From positions 1 through 23,445 of the IMG/VR virus record IMGVR_UViG_3300044858_000542: a stretch of DNA of 23,445 nt, one strand, 5' to 3'. The position numbers and the translations under genes are program-made. This document shows, piece after piece, positions 5,363-15,336 of the stretch. The notes beneath the pieces were generated by a model, which was not told where the DNA came from, searched no databases, and saw only the letters and a program-made list of their open reading frames with translations. Origin of the DNA: a virus. How positions within the stretch are numbered: position 1 is the first letter of the stretch; each line of letters starts with the position of its first letter.

Positions 5363-6595
5363 CTAGAAGGCTAGAGCGTTGCCCGCATCTAGCTTACCAA
5401 ACTGAGCGTCATCCAAGACGAACAGGGCAAAGTCAAGCGTCGAGAAGCCTAGCGACATGATGTGGTTGTCTAGGTCAATCGAGTTGTCAATGCGGATGAT
5501 TTCAGCGTATTTGGAGATAGCCGGGGCAATGCCGTTAGGGGTGAATTTGATTTCGACAACATCGCCGATTTCTAAGCCAAGCAGGTCGCTCTGCTCCTGA
5601 TTCGTCAGCTCGTCAAGCAACACCTCAACAGACTCAAAGCGGTATTCAGGCTGTGAGTATTTATTTGCGTAGAACTCGGCAAGCTCATCAACATCGCCGT
5701 TAGCGTTGATTAGAAGCCCGGTTCGGGTCAGGTTGAAGATTCCGTAAGTGTCTATTGACTCAAGGTCTAGGGTCGTGACCTCATAAGAGGTTATCTCCGA
5801 GCTGACAACAATCTCGTTTGCTAGGAGTTCTGATCCGTATTGCACCTTGAGCGACTGATACTTGATACCAGTGCCGTCATCGGCAAGGGTCACGCCTTGA
5901 GAAGTCGGAGCGGCGATGCGGTCTCGGAAGATTACATTTCCTGACTTACCGATGAAGAATGCACCGGGTTCGCTGCGCTCGACTAATCGCAAGTAGGTCA
6001 GGGCATTTGTGTTGTCAGCGATTGTGTCTGCACCGAGTGTCATTAGCCCTGTGTCAACATCTCGAAGAGTTGAAGGCCAGTTGATTTCAGGCAGGTCAAG
6101 GATTGCGTTTATTCTTTCCCCTGACTTCTGGACTGAGTTTGTTCTTGTGGCAATGGTCTGAGTTGCAAAGGAAGATGTTGCATCCGAGCAAGCTGCCGAA
6201 GCCGTTGAGTCTCCGTTTGGCGCATAGGTCAGATTCCAGTCATCGACAAGACCGGCGAATTGCACAATCCCACCTGATGAGATTCTGACCTGACGCTTGG
6301 GAACTATCTGACCTGCGTATGGTGAGAGTGCATATTCAGGGTCAAAGGTTCGGTCATTGTTATTGAAGACTATGTTTGCCAACCCTGAGTCGAACTGGTC
6401 AAGCTGGCGGTTTTTGCCTCGCTGGATTGCAACCGACTGCACGAGGTCTGTCACATCGAAGAACAGGACACCTGCCAAAAGGTATTCGGTGTTGTTGAGC
6501 TTGCCCTTTATCGGATCGTCGAGAATAAAGTAAGGGCCAAGACCTGACGAGAGAATGTCAAATCCAAGCTCTACCTTTTGGACTGGCTGGCTCAA
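5363..6595 (-). CDS. Minor tail protein (tail tip / baseplate)
   Basis: The 410-residue protein follows the tape measure and overlaps it as TTGA, so the start is probably TTG. The N-terminal part contains VQSVAIQRGKNRQLDQF, then NNDRTFDPEY and SPYAGQIVPKRQVRI, a pattern typical of siphovirus tail-tip proteins. A later segment, IGDVVEIKFTPNG (about 344-356), fits the fold of distal or tail-associated hub proteins. It probably builds the tail tip between the tube and the fibres. No clear catalytic motif is seen. The ribosome site is weak, so translation may depend on coupling to the tape-measure gene. Confidence 0.78.
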   Translation of the reverse strand: MSQPVQKVELGFDILSSGLGPYFILDDPIKGKLNNTEYLLAGVLFFDVTDLVQSVAIQRGKNRQLDQFDSGLANIVFNNNDRTFDPEYALSPYAGQIVPKRQVRISSGGIVQFAGLVDDWNLTYAPNGDSTASAACSDATSSFATQTIATRTNSVQKSGERINAILDLPEINWPSTLRDVDTGLMTLGADTIADNTNALTYLRLVERSEPGAFFIGKSGNVIFRDRIAAPTSQGVTLADDGTGIKYQSLKVQYGSELLANEIVVSSEITSYEVTTLDLESIDTYGIFNLTRTGLLINANGDVDELAEFYANKYSQPEYRFESVEVLLDELTNQEQSDLLGLEIGDVVEIKFTPNGIAPAISKYAEIIRIDNSIDLDNHIMSLGFSTLDFALFVLDDAQFGKLDAGNALAF

Positions 6596-8604
6596 TTTGT
6601 CGGACTCACTAGAACTTGACCACCAGCGGAGACATACTTGGTGATGGTGTTACCCAATGTCTTACCGACCATTGCCAAAGACTGCGTTGAGTCAGTCTTG
6701 ACATTTATGTTGATGATTGTGCCGACTGCATTTGCGCCTTGCGTTCTCAGAAGCTCTGCCTGACTGCGGAACAGGTTGCGTGTTTCTAGCGCTCCCATTG
6801 CAGCAGCGGTTTCCCCTCGGATTGCAGACTCGTTAGCAAACTGAGTTGCCGCTTCGATTCTTGAAGTCAGGTAAGCAAGAACCTTGTCAACATCTGAGAA
6901 TGCGTCAATCAGGATTCCTGTTGCATCGTTGATCAGCTCAGCAGCAGCTGTAGCCCCAGCAGGAATGTCAACGAAAGGTCTTGGGGTTGTTGTGGTCGAA
7001 CCACCACCGCCGCCTCCGCCGCCACCAGACGGAGTGCGTGGGGTTTGCACTGGTGCAGGAATGTTTATCGGAGGCAGAGAAACAGAACCTCCGCCCTGAA
7101 TGCCCTTGAGCAAGTTATTGAACCTGTTTAGCTCACCAGCCGATTCTCTAATCTCATTCTTGATGCGGTCAAGGTTCATGTTGTTGAAGCGATTTAGCTC
7201 TCCGACAGTTGTTCGGATTGCAAGTTCGGTGCGAGCAAGTTCATCTCTGACTCTAGCGACTCCGTTGATTGCTAGGTCTCTATTGGCAGCGGTTGAGCTT
7301 TCTAGTGCAAACTCATACTGACCAAGTAGTCTTCTAAGGCTTTCGACCTGCACAGCGTTCTGAGCCTGTGCTTTCGTCATGCCTTCGGTGTTTACTCTTG
7401 ATCCGTAAACCTGCTGTGAGTAGTCAGCCAAACTTGAGGTCAGGAGAACTGCGCCTGTGACCATAGCTGCGAATGGCAGAAGTTTGAGGGCTGCGCTGAA
7501 AGCTGTTGTTGTTGCGGTTGTGGTTACGACCTGCTTTTGTAGCAACACCATCGCTGCCTGAAACAGCCCAGTTGCGATTGTGACAGCCTTGTAGGTTACG
7601 ACTAAAGCAGCGATTACTGAGGTGAATAGAACTATTGCATCTTTGTTCTGCACCACCCAACCGATGAAGTCAATGAGGGCTTTGATGCTGTCAATGATTG
7701 CGATGGTCAAATCTCTGAGGGTCTGAGTTCCCTCTGGGGATGCAAGCCAGCGAGTGAAGTCTTGAATTGCAGGCAGGACTTCGGTGCGGAAGATGTCTGC
7801 GATTTCAGCAGCAGCGGGAGCGAGTGCCTTTTCTAGCTCTGGTGTGATTTTGATTAGTTCGTTTGAGAACTCTTGGAAGACGGGCAGAAGGGCAGCACCG
7901 ACAGCCTCAGAGATGTTGTCAAAGGCCAGCTTCATCTTGTCAGAAGCCTTAGCGGTTGCCTCAGCAGTTCCGCCGACCTGAGTTTCGATAGCAGAGAGAA
8001 TCATGTTCTGAGCTTCGAGAACTTGTCCCGACTCGACCATGACCTTTATCTTGTTTCTTTCCTCCTGCGTGAAAGTAACACCCGATCTAGTTAGGGCTGT
8101 GAGGCCTTTGATGGGGTCTTGCAGGGCTTTTCCGAGCTGTGTTGCGTTAGTCTCTGCCGAGCCAAATCCAGCGGCTGCTAGGTCAATTGCAGCCATTGTT
8201 GCTCGGTCAAACGCTCCGCCTGTTTCGTCTGCGGTTTGAGCTAGGTTCTTGAAGGTTAGAAGTTTGGCTTGAGCTTGCTTGATGACCTCAGCGTCAACCG
8301 CTAGGGATAGTTCGTTAGCCTCGGCAAACTCGATGATTCTCTGAGTGACCGCAGATGTCTGCGATCCAAACAGGTTCATCGACTTAGCAACCTGCTCAAG
8401 TCGGTTGTTAGCCTGAGCGACATTCTCGGCAGCAGCGATTGAGTCTGCGCCGAACTTGATTAGTGCTGTGGCAGCAGCAGCAGTGGCAGCGGTGACGGCG
8501 GCGAACGCAACTCCCACGCCTTTGCCAAAGTCTTTGAACTCATTGAGGGCAGACTTGACACCCTTGTCATCCCAGACAGATTTGAGGACTACATTTACTG
8601 CCAT
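6592..8604 (-). CDS. Tape measure protein
   Basis: The 670-residue protein is mostly helical and Ala-rich. It has hydrophobic segments at about 30-50 (VAFAAVTAATAAAATALI), 325-355 and 375-392, and a proline patch with nine glycines (about residues 530-550). It sits after the chaperone and before the minor tail genes, the usual place for the protein that sets tail length and lines the tube for DNA ejection. At roughly 1.5 angstrom per residue it predicts a tail near 100 nm, on the short side for siphoviruses. It follows the gp10-like gene with the TAA directly before its ATG, and overlaps the next gene by four bases. Confidence 0.85.
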   Translation of the reverse strand: MAVNVVLKSVWDDKGVKSALNEFKDFGKGVGVAFAAVTAATAAAATALIKFGADSIAAAENVAQANNRLEQVAKSMNLFGSQTSAVTQRIIEFAEANELSLAVDAEVIKQAQAKLLTFKNLAQTADETGGAFDRATMAAIDLAAAGFGSAETNATQLGKALQDPIKGLTALTRSGVTFTQEERNKIKVMVESGQVLEAQNMILSAIETQVGGTAEATAKASDKMKLAFDNISEAVGAALLPVFQEFSNELIKITPELEKALAPAAAEIADIFRTEVLPAIQDFTRWLASPEGTQTLRDLTIAIIDSIKALIDFIGWVVQNKDAIVLFTSVIAALVVTYKAVTIATGLFQAAMVLLQKQVVTTTATTTAFSAALKLLPFAAMVTGAVLLTSSLADYSQQVYGSRVNTEGMTKAQAQNAVQVESLRRLLGQYEFALESSTAANRDLAINGVARVRDELARTELAIRTTVGELNRFNNMNLDRIKNEIRESAGELNRFNNLLKGIQGGGSVSLPPINIPAPVQTPRTPSGGGGGGGGGSTTTTPRPFVDIPAGATAAAELINDATGILIDAFSDVDKVLAYLTSRIEAATQFANESAIRGETAAAMGALETRNLFRSQAELLRTQGANAVGTIININVKTDSTQSLAMVGKTLGNTITKYVSAGGQVLVSPTN

Positions 8605-9246: not shown

Positions 9247-9265
9247 TGAACCACCTTTAGCCTCA

Positions 9266-9271
9266 ATTCTA
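9266..9271 (-). promoter_or_regulatory. Candidate -10 box for the tape-measure unit
   Basis: On the minus strand TAGAAT (five of six bases match TATAAT) lies 19 bases before the ATG at 9246. No good -35 box is seen at 16-18 bases. A promoter is expected here because a terminator at 10071-10090 and two opposed genes separate these tail genes from those upstream. Confidence 0.3.
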
Positions 9272-9286
9272 CCTTGTTATCAAACT

Positions 9287-9294
9287 GTTATCTT
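9287..9294 (+). promoter_or_regulatory. Candidate extended -10 promoter for plus-strand island
   Basis: TGTTATCTT at 9287-9294 (ending in T9294) looks like an extended -10 (TG-n-TATCTT), which would start RNA near 9301 and leave a leader of about 55 bases. A second option is TTGACA at 9313-9318, but its partner TAGCTC is poor and too near the gene. By eye only. Confidence 0.22.
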
Positions 9295-9357
9295 TTGACC
9301 CTGCCTAAATCCTTGACAATCCCCTAGCCTTGACCTAGCTCAAAGAAAGGAAAAGAA

Positions 9358-9573
9358 ATGAGCATTATTTATAGATACAAAGACACATGGGCAATCAGGC
9401 TTCCACTCGGGAAGGGATTGTTTTTTCAGTATGACGGACTTGACTCTTACGGAAGTTTGAGGTCTTGGGATTGCACCAAGTATGACTTCCTAGATGTCGC
9501 AGGGTTTGAGTTTAGCCAGTATTACTTTGGTGATGACATAGAGTTTTATAGGGGGAGCAAGTGGGCCAAGTAA
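9358..9573 (+). CDS. Unknown small protein, plus-strand island gene 1
   Basis: I do not recognise this 71-residue protein. It is rich in aromatic residues (many Y, F and W) and Asp, has no membrane span or signal, and is probably a small beta protein. GAAAGGA lies about eight bases before the ATG, a good ribosome site. It overlaps the second island gene by 13 bases, so the two are likely one operon. It is on the strand opposite to all tail genes around it, which is typical of late-acquired cargo genes (morons). Defence, host take-over or exclusion roles are possible, but nothing in the sequence decides between them. Confidence 0.72.
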   Translation: MSIIYRYKDTWAIRLPLGKGLFFQYDGLDSYGSLRSWDCTKYDFLDVAGFEFSQYYFGDDIEFYRGSKWAK

Positions 9574-10058
9574 AGGAATATCTAACCGAAAACATTGAGT
9601 CAGTCCTTGCTCGTAATGTGATTGAGATGTATGGCGATCGGGTCAACATTGACTTTGAGATTATGGAAACAATAACTCATCTGCTGTCTGGAGACAATCA
9701 GGCACTACATGACAAAGAGCATGAGTATTTCACCACCCTAAACATTGACACAGCAGATTTTCTAACTGACTGGCTTCATGCGATGACTGCTGCGATTGCA
9801 GTCTTTACGGGTGAGGCAACGACAGAAGATGGTCTGGTTGGAAATAGTTTTGATTGGATGGCTTACCACTTCAATAACAGTCCTCGCCGAACTGTCAGAG
9901 CTATGCAGGACATGGGCCTGAACGATAGGGCGGTTCAGGGCATTATCTATCTGCTGACTGGGAGATTGCTAGAGGTCAATGAGGCTTTGAACATTGTTAG
10001 GTTTGAATACCTAAAGAACGCCAATCATCCAACTGTTATGTCTAGGGTTGTCTCCTAG
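9561..10058 (+). CDS. Unknown acidic helical protein, plus-strand island gene 2
   Basis: I do not recognise this 165-residue protein. It is mostly helical and acidic. It has an LTDWLHAMTAAIAVFTGEAT segment at about 68-87 that is too mixed to be a sure membrane span, and a GLNDRAVQGIIYLLTGRLLE helix pair at about 119-138. The start is GTG at 9561, with GGGGGAG just upstream inside gene 1. It is followed by a perfect eight-base hairpin terminator at 10071-10090. The gene and its partner form a self-contained unit within the tail module. Confidence 0.78.
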   Translation: MGQVKEYLTENIESVLARNVIEMYGDRVNIDFEIMETITHLLSGDNQALHDKEHEYFTTLNIDTADFLTDWLHAMTAAIAVFTGEATTEDGLVGNSFDWMAYHFNNSPRRTVRAMQDMGLNDRAVQGIIYLLTGRLLEVNEALNIVRFEYLKNANHPTVMSRVVS

Positions 10059-10070
10059 CTAAAAGCAAAG

Positions 10071-10090
10071 CCCCTCCCGATTGGGAGGGG
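10071..10090. terminator. Bidirectional rho-independent terminator
   Basis: CCCCTCCC, a GATT loop and GGGAGGGG make a perfect eight-base stem. T-rich tracts follow on both strands (TCTTGCTATTTCTTT on plus, CTTTGCTTTT on minus). It closes the plus-strand island and also lies six bases past the frameshifted chaperone stop, so it should end both converging transcripts. Confidence 0.85.
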
Positions 10091-10095
10091 TCTTG

Positions 10096-10499
10096 CTATT
10101 TCTTTGACATCTCTTGCGCTCTCCAGATCAGAAAGCGGCCCATTGTCCAAAGCATTCTCTCGTCAAGTTTTAGTAACTCAAGCGGGCTGATTTTGAACTC
10201 ATAGGCAATGTTCACCAAATACCAATGAGCCGAGCTATCGCCAAGCCCTTCTATGCTTTTGGGTCAACTGCTCCGATTGAAGCAACTGTTTCAACCCAAG
10301 CGTCAAAGCCTTGAGTTGTTTGCTTCTCTCTGGTTAGTGCTGACCAAGCGAGCCAGAGCAGGTGGGTAACTTTACCTTCCTGCCCTAGCTTCGCAATGCT
10401 GATGTTCTGCTCGGATTCAAACTTAACCATGTCAGCCATGATTATCTTGACATCCTTTTTGGTCTCGTCATTGAACTCGACCTGTAGCTGCATCCTCAT
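10096..10499 (-). CDS. Tail assembly chaperone, long form made by -1 frameshift
   Basis: Reading from ATG 10499 through the slippery heptamer CCCAAAA (10257-10263) and moving back one base joins the 81-residue first part to 53 more residues. The new part begins SIEGLGDSSAHWYLVNIAYE and continues FKISPLELLKLDERMLW, ending MSKK. This joins two coding frames into a 134-residue protein, the classic G/GT chaperone pair of long-tailed phages. The long form bridges the tape measure and tail tube subunits during assembly. The second frame has no start codon of its own near the junction and clearly codes protein, which supports the shift. Frame joining is read directly; its efficiency is unknown. Confidence 0.85.
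10251..10499 (-). CDS. Tail assembly chaperone, short form
   Basis: This is the 82-residue unshifted product, ending at TAG just two codons past the slippery site. It is a small acidic helical protein (DDMVKF-like and LGQEGKVTHLLWLAWSAL segments) in the usual chaperone slot between major tail protein and tape measure. The short form is normally made in excess over the frameshifted form, a ratio that matters for tail assembly. AGGAAA is seven bases before the ATG. A second ATG two codons later is also possible. Confidence 0.85.
   Translation of the reverse strand: MRMQLQVEFNDETKKDVKIIMADMVKFESEQNISIAKLGQEGKVTHLLWLAWSALTREKQTTQGFDAWVETVASIGAVDPKA
10257..10263 (-). promoter_or_regulatory. -1 ribosomal frameshift site CCCAAAA
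   Basis: In the zero frame the codons are GAC CCA AAA, so C-CCA-AAA fits the X-XXY-YYZ slippery rule, with full re-pairing of both tRNAs after a one-base backward slip. A GGAG lies seven bases upstream and could act as an internal Shine-Dalgarno stimulator. A weak stem (GGGCT with AGCTC) follows. TAG is the second codon after the site. Confidence 0.85.
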
Positions 10500-11951: not shown

Positions 11952-11979
11952 TGTTCCTCCGCCTCTATTCTAGCCGAGA

Positions 11980-12642
11980 CTAGAAGCCCTTGCTTTTGGC
12001 ATATTTGTAAATCTGGTCAAGATGGTATTGTTTGTCTGGCTGATGGTTGCTGGATAGTGTGTTTCTGTCTATCCCTGCATCCCAAATCATGCGGCGAGTG
12101 TTAGCGAAATAAACCTTCGCACCCTCGGCGGCAGCGTCAATCTGAAAAGCCCAGTCCCCAAACTTGTAGTCATTTGTGGTAAGTCTTTTGTAGATTTCAA
12201 GAGTGGTCATGGGCCAACCCGGTATTGGTAGCCTTGTGGCAATGCTTGAGGTATCCCAATGCCCTCGCTCAAGTGCTTGGTTATGCCGAACGACTATTGA
12301 GTCACAAATTATTTCTGCACCTGCTTCATCGGCTGCTTCCAGCTCATCAAGTGCCTCTGGCAAAAGCTCATCGTCAATCGGCATATACAACCACCACTTT
12401 GAGGTTGCCTGCCTAGTTGCATAATCCCACTTTTCCATATTCGAGCCTTCTGGCAAAACCACAACCCTAGCTTCTATGCCTTCAGGGATTGACTTAGACA
12501 AACCAGTCGGATCACCTTCTGCAATGCCCAAAATAATCTCGTCAGGTTTTCTGTTTAGTCGCAGAACTCCCGACCACCATCGAGGGATAAATTCTGCGTA
12601 TTCCATGCCATAGCAACAGGTAACAAGAGAAAGGGTTGTCAT
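11980..12642 (-). CDS. GT-A-like glycosyltransferase, paralogue A
   Basis: The 220-residue protein has a Rossmann-like start (TTLSLVTCCYG), the block FIPRWWSGVLRLNRKPDEI, and MPIDDE with D90-D91, which fits the metal and nucleotide-sugar site of GT-A (GT2-like) enzymes. It ends in a WD-rich block (GDWAFQ, RRMIWDAGIDRN) and a basic tail. It probably moves a sugar from a nucleotide donor to a phage or host acceptor. It shares the WW[SA]GV..L..KP motif with the protein at 13438-14133, so the two look like ancient duplicates. It is the last gene of the sugar island. The ribosome site is weak (GAAG). Confidence 0.7.
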   Translation of the reverse strand: MTTLSLVTCCYGMEYAEFIPRWWSGVLRLNRKPDEIILGIAEGDPTGLSKSIPEGIEARVVVLPEGSNMEKWDYATRQATSKWWLYMPIDDELLPEALDELEAADEAGAEIICDSIVVRHNQALERGHWDTSSIATRLPIPGWPMTTLEIYKRLTTNDYKFGDWAFQIDAAAEGAKVYFANTRRMIWDAGIDRNTLSSNHQPDKQYHLDQIYKYAKSKGF

Positions 12643-12646
12643 TCTT

Positions 12647-13441
12647 CTAATCTACCGACATTGTTCTGACCATCTCAGAAATCATCGGCCCTCTGAGGTA
12701 GCGGCTGTTGCGCCAGAGCAGTCGGTTGGTGTAGCTGAACTTGGTCGCAAGTCTTCGGTCAATCATGTTGGTTATGGTTGGTATCACTTCGATATCATCT
12801 CTGCCTAATCGCTTGGCAATCATCTTCACTAGGTCGTATTTAGAAACCCAGTCATCGGGGACTAGGTGCTGAGTTCCAGCCAATAGGTAGTTCTGTTTCA
12901 TTATCCCTGCGACCACCCTTGCAAACGCCTCGGTTGTCACGCCGTTCCAGTAGTGATTGACAAAGCCGTTTATCCTTGCGCCTTCAGGTTGGTTCTTCAC
13001 CCAGTCGAATAGCGAGCCTGTGCCGTTCGCTCCGATTATTGAGCAGCGCAGATTGAGCCAGTTCGCTGCCGAGACCTCGCCTCGCTTCTTGCTCACGCCG
13101 TAAGGGTCGGTTGCGTCTCGCTCAGATTCTTCGGTATAGAAACCTTTGTCACCTGCAAACACGCAGTCAGTTGCAATCTGAATGAAGTAAAGGTCTTTGC
13201 GAGTTGCGAGCAGGTGAGGAAAATCGCCATTTATCTTTTCCAGCTTTTCGACTGTTGGCTTCTTCTGTGGAATTGCTCCGATGCAGTTGATGACAACATC
13301 GCCTTCGGTCAGCATGAATCGGTCAATCGAATCTGGTGCTTCGTATTCTGAGCGTGAGGGTGCAATCAGGTCAAAAGAAGAAAGCTCTTTGACCATCGCC
13401 GAGCCAAGCATTCCCTCAGCTCCCAAGATGAGAACCTTCAC
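12647..13441 (-). CDS. RmlD-like dTDP-sugar reductase (extended SDR)
   Basis: The 264-residue protein opens MKVLILGAEGMLGS, with the GxxGxxG NAD(P)-binding turn at residues 7-13. It has INCIGA, the IATDCVF strand (T91, D92) and YGVSK (Y114, K118) as the catalytic pair, all as in dTDP-4-dehydrorhamnose reductases. Such enzymes make the last step of a deoxysugar donor such as dTDP-rhamnose, or a related nucleotide sugar. The start is GTG with a GTGA overlap to the previous glycosyltransferase. The other Rml enzymes are absent in this window, so an earlier intermediate must come from the host or from genes elsewhere. The exact sugar is unknown. Confidence 0.8.
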   Translation of the reverse strand: MKVLILGAEGMLGSAMVKELSSFDLIAPSRSEYEAPDSIDRFMLTEGDVVINCIGAIPQKKPTVEKLEKINGDFPHLLATRKDLYFIQIATDCVFAGDKGFYTEESERDATDPYGVSKKRGEVSAANWLNLRCSIIGANGTGSLFDWVKNQPEGARINGFVNHYWNGVTTEAFARVVAGIMKQNYLLAGTQHLVPDDWVSKYDLVKMIAKRLGRDDIEVIPTITNMIDRRLATKFSYTNRLLWRNSRYLRGPMISEMVRTMSVD

Positions 13442-14133
13442 CTCAGCGACCTTGATAGTTGTCTTATCTGCTCCATGCCCTCTGCTCTCTGATCAGGCCC
13501 AAGCAATGCCCCAGAGGTTGTCATGCGATCGTAACCCCTGTCAAAAACAATCCTCATCGTAGGCGTGTTGTATGGCTTTACAAGGCCCGTTTTCCTCATG
13601 TGTAGCGCAAGACCCCAGTCGGCGAATCTTATGCCCTCAGGGAAGCCTCCAGAGGCTTGCCAGAGGTGTCTGGTCATGGGGTTAGCACCGCCTAGTTCAA
13701 ACTCATAATCAAGGGTCATTGGTAGCCACTTAGTCTGTTGGACATAATCTGTTCCTTTGGTTCTAAGCCAGTCGCAGACTAGGTTGCAACCCTCTGCTTC
13801 GGCTAGGGGAATTGAATTGAGTCCCCCGGGCAGGAAGTAATCGTCAACATTGCAAAGAGCTATCCACTTGCCAACGCATAGATAGATTGCTTGATTCCAA
13901 TACTCGGCATAGCTGTTTAGGTTTTCTTTTATTACCCTGACAACACCCTCGTTCGGAACGCTGGCTTTGACCGCTTCCCAGTTCTTCTCATCGGTGACAA
14001 TGTTTATCTCAAACGGCTTCGTCTCAAGCGACTGCACGCCTGCCCACCATTGAGGCAGGAATTGAGAATAACCATCGCCCCAAATTGCTAGGGGCAGAGA
14101 GATTAGACCAGTGTCTTCAGGAATGGTAGCCAA
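13438..14133 (-). CDS. GT-A-like glycosyltransferase, paralogue B
   Basis: The 231-residue protein has SLPLAIWGDGYSQFLPQWWA near the start, then GVQSLETKPFEINIV, and CNVDDYFLPGGL with D97-D98 as a likely metal/nucleotide-sugar site. The WW[SA]GV..L..KP block and the DD motif line up with the protein at 11980-12642. Later motifs GGANPMTRHLW and GFPEGIRFADWGLALHM fit acceptor-side helices of GT2-like enzymes. The only start in frame near the previous gene is TTG at 14133, with GGAA upstream, overlapping the GT-B gene by 31 bases. Donor and acceptor are unknown. Confidence 0.7.
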   Translation of the reverse strand: MATIPEDTGLISLPLAIWGDGYSQFLPQWWAGVQSLETKPFEINIVTDEKNWEAVKASVPNEGVVRVIKENLNSYAEYWNQAIYLCVGKWIALCNVDDYFLPGGLNSIPLAEAEGCNLVCDWLRTKGTDYVQQTKWLPMTLDYEFELGGANPMTRHLWQASGGFPEGIRFADWGLALHMRKTGLVKPYNTPTMRIVFDRGYDRMTTSGALLGPDQRAEGMEQIRQLSRSLR

Positions 14134-15305
14134 TAGTGATTCCAGACTTTCACATCGTCAAACTGCTGAGCAAACTTGCGTGATGTTTCTGAGTAGCGGC
14201 CTTCTTCTTTTGTTACCTGATAAGCCTTCTCTAGTTGTTGAGCGATTGACGAGATATAAGGAATCTTCCACCATGCAATCTGCGCCTCATCCCAGAACAA
14301 CTGTCCTTGAACCTTGAAGCCATCTTCTGCCACTAAATCCCTCGGCCCAGTCCAGTCGGATGCGATGACTCTTGTGCCACAGGCTTGCGCCTCAATGATT
14401 GGAATTTCAAATCCCCCACCGAGCGAAACCTGCAACACAACATCCGCAGCCGAGTAGAAGCCGGCTAGGTCTTTCGGATCAACACCTAAGCGGTAGTCGA
14501 TGGGGTCAGGGAAAATAACAGAACTCATGTCAAGCCCGCAAGCCTCAGCTAGTCGGGGAAGATGGAAGCCTCCATAAACACCCTTCGGTTCGGTGTGGAC
14601 ATAGAGATAAGCGTTTGGGTGTGTTTGTCGGAACATTGCAAAAGCCATGAAAGCCTCAGCGAAAGCCTTGCGATGAATTGACTTGTTTGCTTTGTTAGCT
14701 GCATTCATTACGACTAGGAAGTCATCTTCCTTGACACCCAAAAACTCTCTGCCGTCTTGCTTGCCAATCTTGTCGGTGCGCTTGAAGGTGTTGACTGTAT
14801 CTACCGAGTGCGGAATGTAGATTCCCTCGATGCCGACATCTTGCAGTTGCTCCATGCCGAAGGGTGACATTGCGATCGGTTGAACATTGTCTTTGTCTAG
14901 CCAACGCTTGACCGCAGGAGGCATTGAGATATGGTCTAGCGGTGTCCAGCTCAGAATATTGGGCCACTCTTCTGTCGGCCACATCTCAGGCTTTAGAACC
15001 CAGACATCGCAAAGAGTCAGGATGTAATCTTTCCAATCCTTGTTCATCATTTGCATCTTGTGTCCGACTGCAAGTGAATCCTGTGACATTGGCTCATAGC
15101 CTCTTGCGTAGTGTGGAATTTCTCCGTAAGGGGTTTTGTGTGTTGAGTTGTTGCCCTCTAGTCCGTAGTTCGAGACATGAGCAACATTCGCTCCATGCTT
15201 TGCAAGATTGTCAATCAGTTGCCCGATCTGCATTCCGTAACCTGTTGGCTGGTATGGCGAATTGGAGAAGGTTGTAACTGTTAGGTCTAACTGCTCTGGC
15301 TTCAT
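14103..15305 (-). CDS. GT-B glycosyltransferase, GT4-like
   Basis: From ATG 15305 the protein has 400 residues. The C-terminal half holds FPDPIDYRLGVDPKDLAGFY, then SAADVVLQVSLGGGFEIPII and EAQACGTRVIAS, the donor-binding fold with the E-x5-E-like motif of GT4 enzymes. The N-terminal half (NSPYQPTGYGMQIGQLIDNL) has the acceptor-side G-x-G-x-x-x-x-x-L pattern. It would transfer a sugar from a nucleotide donor with a GT-B two-domain fold. AGGAA lies five bases before this ATG, so it is chosen over an in-frame GTG at 15326. It is the first gene of the sugar island, just after the MCP terminator. Confidence 0.8.
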   Translation of the reverse strand: MKPEQLDLTVTTFSNSPYQPTGYGMQIGQLIDNLAKHGANVAHVSNYGLEGNNSTHKTPYGEIPHYARGYEPMSQDSLAVGHKMQMMNKDWKDYILTLCDVWVLKPEMWPTEEWPNILSWTPLDHISMPPAVKRWLDKDNVQPIAMSPFGMEQLQDVGIEGIYIPHSVDTVNTFKRTDKIGKQDGREFLGVKEDDFLVVMNAANKANKSIHRKAFAEAFMAFAMFRQTHPNAYLYVHTEPKGVYGGFHLPRLAEACGLDMSSVIFPDPIDYRLGVDPKDLAGFYSAADVVLQVSLGGGFEIPIIEAQACGTRVIASDWTGPRDLVAEDGFKVQGQLFWDEAQIAWWKIPYISSIAQQLEKAYQVTKEEGRYSETSRKFAQQFDDVKVWNHYWLPFLKTLV

Positions 15306-15336
15306 AAATTCCTTTCTTCCCCCCACAATAGCAAAA

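Follow-up and report, generated by a model that had tools for sequence, protein, structure and literature searches.

Morons, accessory genes inserted among the late genes of tailed phages, are a known kind of phage cargo. In lambdoid and other tailed phages, they lie between late genes, often on an unusual strand, and are missing in close relatives; a promoter and a terminator of their own inside a late operon make up the classical anatomy. A second type of described system concerns control by the host. Cyanophage genes carry a box of the OmpR/PhoB family that is read by the host's PhoB, the phages encoding no regulator of that class, and this precedent is backed by binding assays (PMC10976474). 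The MtrA consensus in S. coelicolor is GTAACCNNNNNGTAACC (PMC12323332), while GlnR boxes read GTnAC-n6-GTnAC (S. venezuelae) or t/gTAAC-n6-Gc/aAAC (M. smegmatis); binding of GlnR boxes by MtrA was also reported (PMC10704036). No publication on MtrA or GlnR boxes in actinophages was found in the literature searched.

Here, we analyze an island in the tail module of a siphophage, within a 23,445-base IMG/VR contig (the window) whose structural genes lie on the minus strand. The island shares the anatomy of lambdoid morons, but it differs from them in belonging to a lytic phage family, in bearing a direct-repeat putative activator box in its leader, and in traveling with one structural gene. What is new is not the cargo itself but an MtrA/GlnR-like box common to cargo at several sites, together with a late promoter that overlaps it. 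Our best reading, which we regard as evenly balanced between right and wrong, is that the island is an accessory cassette of early type that acts in the host and is switched by a host response regulator.

The island comprises gene A (positions 9358 to 9573, plus strand; 71 aa) and gene B (9561 to 10058, plus strand; 165 aa, GTG start), whose open reading frames overlap by 13 nt. Both have the substitution pattern of real genes that evolve as proteins under purifying selection, with a median dN/dS of 0.07 over 5 pairs for A and of 0.13 over 69 pairs for B. An earlier note on this DNA placed the two genes between the chaperone and the tape measure, transcribed against the tail genes; the orientation stands, but a core gene of 213 aa, C213 (8605 to 9246, minus strand), separates the island from the tape measure. 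The upstream neighbor is the tail assembly chaperone G/G'T (10096 to 10499, minus strand), whose long form, G'T, arises by a -1 frameshift. A canonical slippery heptamer, C CCA AAA, lies at 10263 to 10257 (minus strand), where the 82-aa chaperone ORF ends, and the -1 frame (PKSIEGLGDSSAHWYL...) is kept in relatives, giving G and G'T products.

G'T ends at 10096 and B at 10058, leaving 37 bp that hold a GC-rich hairpin between the two stops. This predicted bidirectional intrinsic terminator (10070 to 10091), already proposed in the earlier note as the closing border of the island, folds on the two strands at -26.5 and -24.8 kcal/mol (z of -6.0 and -5.5). It gives the island a terminator of its own by predicted structure on both strands, and empty sites have a terminator at this point as well. 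The search for RNA elements in the island region returned just one sub-threshold match, on this same hairpin. At the other end, C213 and A start on either side of a divergent leader of exactly 111 nt (9247 to 9357).

Gene B was found in 23 contigs, the window and 22 further ones, always between G'T and C213, and homologs down to 41% identity keep this position. Since an independent profile built from distant members gave no further members, the B family seems to occur nowhere but at this site, in a single phage family; no B was found in the phage collection either. The site is empty in 39 sampled relatives, phiPsal1 included, against 22 full rows. In the family proper, the order at empty sites is the G'T stop, the terminator hairpin, AGGTAGAATTGA or a variant of it, and C213. 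The closest empty-site relatives are 99 to 100% identical in the chaperone (TAC) and 98 to 99% identical in the tape measure (TMP). The island thus stands between core genes and is missing there in close relatives, as morons are, whereas a virion structural gene would be present at the site in all relatives. It is therefore accessory, non-core cargo, as the earlier note had supposed.

The cargo content also varies, in that B alone, A with B, and B with a BRCT gene were all seen at the locus in relatives, the earlier note having suggested a search for different cargo there. Gene A is present upstream of B in seven contigs (the window and L002, L003, L004, L005, L008, and L033), and its presence requires 3 changes on the B tree. 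In contigs without A, B begins right after the leader, with ATG. In the distant relatives L106, L107, and L114, B is 41 to 46% identical and a small BRCT gene comes after it (Pfam PF00533; E values of 1e-8 to 1e-10). In L107 (5353 to 5580) and L114 (4813 to 5028), this gene is a stand-alone version similar to the domain at the C-terminus of NAD-dependent DNA ligase, and the profile match begins at its position 19. Because A is optional and BRCT is an alternative beside B, B is the core gene and A and BRCT are options; of the two-gene unit first described, the reality of both genes holds, but the unit has a single core gene with an optional partner. Two short overlapping genes could also suggest a toxin-antitoxin pair that stabilizes the phage. 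Neither gene matches a toxin-antitoxin family, and A is missing from most B-bearing phages, so we reject this pairing as hardly credible.

The window phage is probably a lytic phage of freshwater or marine actinobacteria. Its host is very probably an actinobacterium, on the basis of the WhiB gene that the phage encodes and of its relative phiPsal1 (MG835450), from Pontimonas salivibrio, which has a homologous head-tail module in the same gene order but an empty site. Of the 11 two-component systems in Pontimonas, five were matched to those of M. tuberculosis. A genome scan for the host gave a single match, a phage contig in a metagenome-assembled genome (MAG) with relatives of 0.4 to 1.0 Mb. 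This contig, L128, is an empty-site relative inside a pond MAG; it reflects either a binning error, which is the probable explanation, or an unexpected host. Since no MtrA exceeded the cut-off in the 0.4- to 1.0-Mb relatives of this MAG and mis-binning is probable, we set it aside as host evidence.

Expression from a prophage, a mark of classical morons, is not demanded by every moron definition. The promoter and terminator that the island possesses within a late operon would suit a temperate-phage moron serving exclusion or lysogenic conversion and expressed by the prophage. However, no tyrosine or serine recombinase (integrase or resolvase) was found in 10 to 11 family records, a search limited by the fragmentary state of the contigs, and 84,980 prokaryote genomes yielded no B at the sensitivity of the scan. 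Furthermore, phiPsal1 was described as lytic and not integrated (PMC6106888). We hence consider a prophage moron very improbable; lysogenic expression and a role in excluding other phages, both raised in the earlier note, are unlikely.

The 111-nt leader was thought to hold candidate promoters for both strands. A generic sigma-70 scan of this gap found no promoter, but comparison of homologous leaders bears the proposal out, revealing a conserved -10 on each strand. On the plus strand, the putative island promoter has a -10, TAGCCT (9325 to 9330), and a poor -35, CTGCCT (9301 to 9306). The main TAnnnT hexamer occurs 33 to 35 nt from the edge of the box described below in all 8 diverged B leaders (34 nt in the window), and the product of the shuffle probabilities is 1.5e-10 if these are independent. 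Four distant leaders have TTGACA, TTGACT, or TTGCCA 18 nt ahead of the -10. Comparative sequence thereby points to a promoter belonging to the island itself, with its -10 conserved at a fixed distance from the box.

On the minus strand, AGGTAGAATTGA (9263 to 9274) contains TAGAAT at 9266 to 9271 as the late-type -10 of C213, and it is conserved in empty-site relatives. Nearly all relatives keep TAGAAT, as a rule with TGA or AGA right after it, ahead of both C213 and the head-tail connector gene, whereas the more upstream sequence varies freely. In the window, the second copy lies at 11967 to 11972 (minus strand), upstream of the connector gene. We propose TAGAAT as a late -10, a candidate promoter needing no -35.

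Between the two putative -10s lies a direct repeat, RTAAC-N6-RTAAC, with an 11-bp period (9276 to 9291, minus strand). It is present once, at the same place, in every B leader, although B falls to 41% identity; in these leaders, it precedes the TAGAAT -10, and there is no box at empty sites. Relative to the B promoter, the box lies upstream of the -35; relative to the C213 promoter, it covers the -35/spacer region. A site upstream of the -35 is the usual place for an activator. In all leaders, the distance of 33 to 35 nt upstream of the -10 is likewise suited to activation, as would be expected of a promoter under MtrA or GlnR control.

The box core has only 10 specified bases. In 15 family records, the pattern matched 20 times versus 2 for the reversed control. 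Among repeat spacings of 0 to 21, a spacing of 6 was found in 28 distinct contexts versus 0 to 10 for the others, homologous contexts not being independent. The box is also found in six relatives at a site following rusA, ahead of TATA-like -10s that serve small early genes of diverse kinds; in G014 and G003, the rusA-site box is a triple repeat. Small unrelated ORFs headed by the box follow rusA in L120, L121, L122, L123, L124, and L125. The box-headed ORFs after rusA are likely early host-interaction genes. In L082, L095, and L097, moreover, the box heads different accessory genes that are inserted ahead of the capsid gene. This second site for accessory genes, ahead of the major capsid gene, was seen at 2086 to 2334 in L126, at about 1081 to 1377 in L095, and at about 1042 to 1338 in L097, and its cargo comprises two or more distinct small genes (MKTQFENYIQ... 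and MGYTITATSANG...), with the box in each leader.

These occurrences underlie a broader proposal, that the phage family has wired optional genes at at least three sites to a host master response regulator, MtrA or GlnR, through such boxes. In the tail module, the box would also serve to switch between the accessory gene, which runs backwards, and the late structural promoter. We hold this proposal tentatively, as somewhat short of probable. If it is true, RTAAC-N6-RTAAC with a -10 at a fixed distance is a sequence tag that finds host-interaction genes among unknown phage ORFs.

Regulators of the OmpR family use sites in the form of 11-bp direct repeats, and the phage box is a putative site for such a response regulator. 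Like the boxes of MtrA and GlnR in Streptomyces and Mycobacterium, it consists of two 5-nt GTAAC-like repeats with an 11-bp period; it differs from them in being in phage genomes, in having A or G as its first base, and in that the sixth base of the unit is not a conserved C. Its reader could instead be encoded by the phage, the cassette then belonging to the phage's own early regulon without any sensing of the host. The recurrence of the box in the early region of relatives would be in agreement with this view, as would the WhiB genes of family phages and the cI/cro-type HTH proteins annotated in phiPsal1. Yet no OmpR-type DNA-binding domain exceeded the cut-off in 11 phage records, despite the OmpR-type form of the repeat, and phiPsal1 carries WhiB but has no RTAAC box, which weakly disfavors WhiB as the reader. 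A phage-encoded reader therefore seems unlikely to us, though it is still a serious contender. B can be ruled out in this role, because five of the six genomes with the box at the rusA site lack it.

A host regulator remains the reading that we prefer, and we regard the step from the box to MtrA or GlnR as supported rather than demonstrated. As in the cyanophages, phage genes bear an OmpR/PhoB-family box with no phage-encoded regulator of that class; here, by contrast, the box is MtrA/GlnR-like, the host is very probably actinobacterial, and binding is predicted from the sequence. Control of phage genes by a host response regulator has its documented case in cyanophages with PhoB; finding it again in Actinobacteria would show it to be general.

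In the mechanism that we propose, a lytic actinophage carries the island as an accessory cassette of moron type. B, alone or together with A, would be made from an early-type promoter pointing against the tail genes, and the bidirectional terminator would separate its transcripts from those of the chaperone. An OmpR/PhoB-type factor, most likely host MtrA or GlnR, would bind RTAAC-N6-RTAAC; from this upstream site, acting as an activator, it would turn on the B promoter while also covering the -35/spacer region of the C213 late promoter. At the onset of late transcription, the TAGAAT promoter would take over. B would act inside the host cell, in host take-over or counter-defence, rather than as a part of the virion. 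We infer the identity of the binding protein, the sense of its action (activation versus repression), the timing, and the function of B.

The history of the island ties it to C213. Its presence or absence requires 2 changes on the C213 maximum-likelihood tree, compared with 8 on the connector, 9 on the tail terminator, 12 on the major tail protein (MTP), 12 on the TAC, 11 on the G'T, 12 on the tape measure N-terminus, and 11 on the Dit trees. Distance alone does not explain this asymmetry, because G'T is only 37 bp from B. The number of label changes climbs from 2 to 4 along C213, the pattern expected from physical linkage, and the N-terminus of island-type C213 does not align with that of the empty-site type. 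Tree comparisons thus identify the recombining cassette as the island, its leader, and C213. The view of the island as self-contained holds for its own terminator and promoter, but not for its inheritance, which is shared with C213, nor for its box, which overlaps the C213 promoter.

The scarcity of changes on the C213 tree relative to G'T, TAC, MTP, TMP, and Dit, together with the distinct N-terminus, might also mean that B chaperones, inhibits, or modifies the C213 tail-module protein and that the two are co-inherited from mutual need. B, however, is on the opposite strand with a separate early-type promoter, the shared 111-bp leader with its overlapping box and -10 would by itself force co-inheritance, and the climb along C213 is what linkage would produce. 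We find such a partnership distinctly unlikely and retain the reading of B as an early-type factor acting in the host.

Profile searches in Pfam, PHROGs, and NCBIfam returned no known family for A or B, in line with the first impression of the locus, and PADLOC returned none for B; matches to HpaII (E of 0.06) and phage 30.8 (E of 0.019) were below the cut-off. The AlphaFold model of B is mostly helical (pLDDT 83, pTM 0.76) and had no credible match in the PDB by sequence or in the PDB and BFVD by fold, while the model of A was too weak for such use (pLDDT 64). B is acidic, with a charge of about -12, and has a conserved core (residues 53 to 150) that includes D63-W71, Y102-Q116, and Q126-L137. 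Its N-terminal segment (codons 15 to 52) is variable, with amino acid change about four times faster and a pN/pS of 0.41 versus about 0.1 in the core; this value is not above 1, and we reject positive selection as the explanation. We speculate that B meets a varying host target, which would fit its early-type promoter, optional presence, confinement to one family, and variable segment. As a protein family without a sequence or fold relative, at one site in one phage family, B is a concrete candidate for host take-over or counter-defence.

Variation is also apparent elsewhere among the structural genes of the window. Between the capsid and connector genes (11980 to 15326, minus strand) lies a block of glycosyltransferase-like and epimerase-like genes, which appears to be another variable region, since most relatives lack a close match to the 220-aa gene adjoining the connector. 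The tape measure (6592 to 8604, minus strand) ranges from 26 to 99% identity among close relatives while that of the neighboring Dit stays high, which suggests that the tape measure undergoes frequent exchange.
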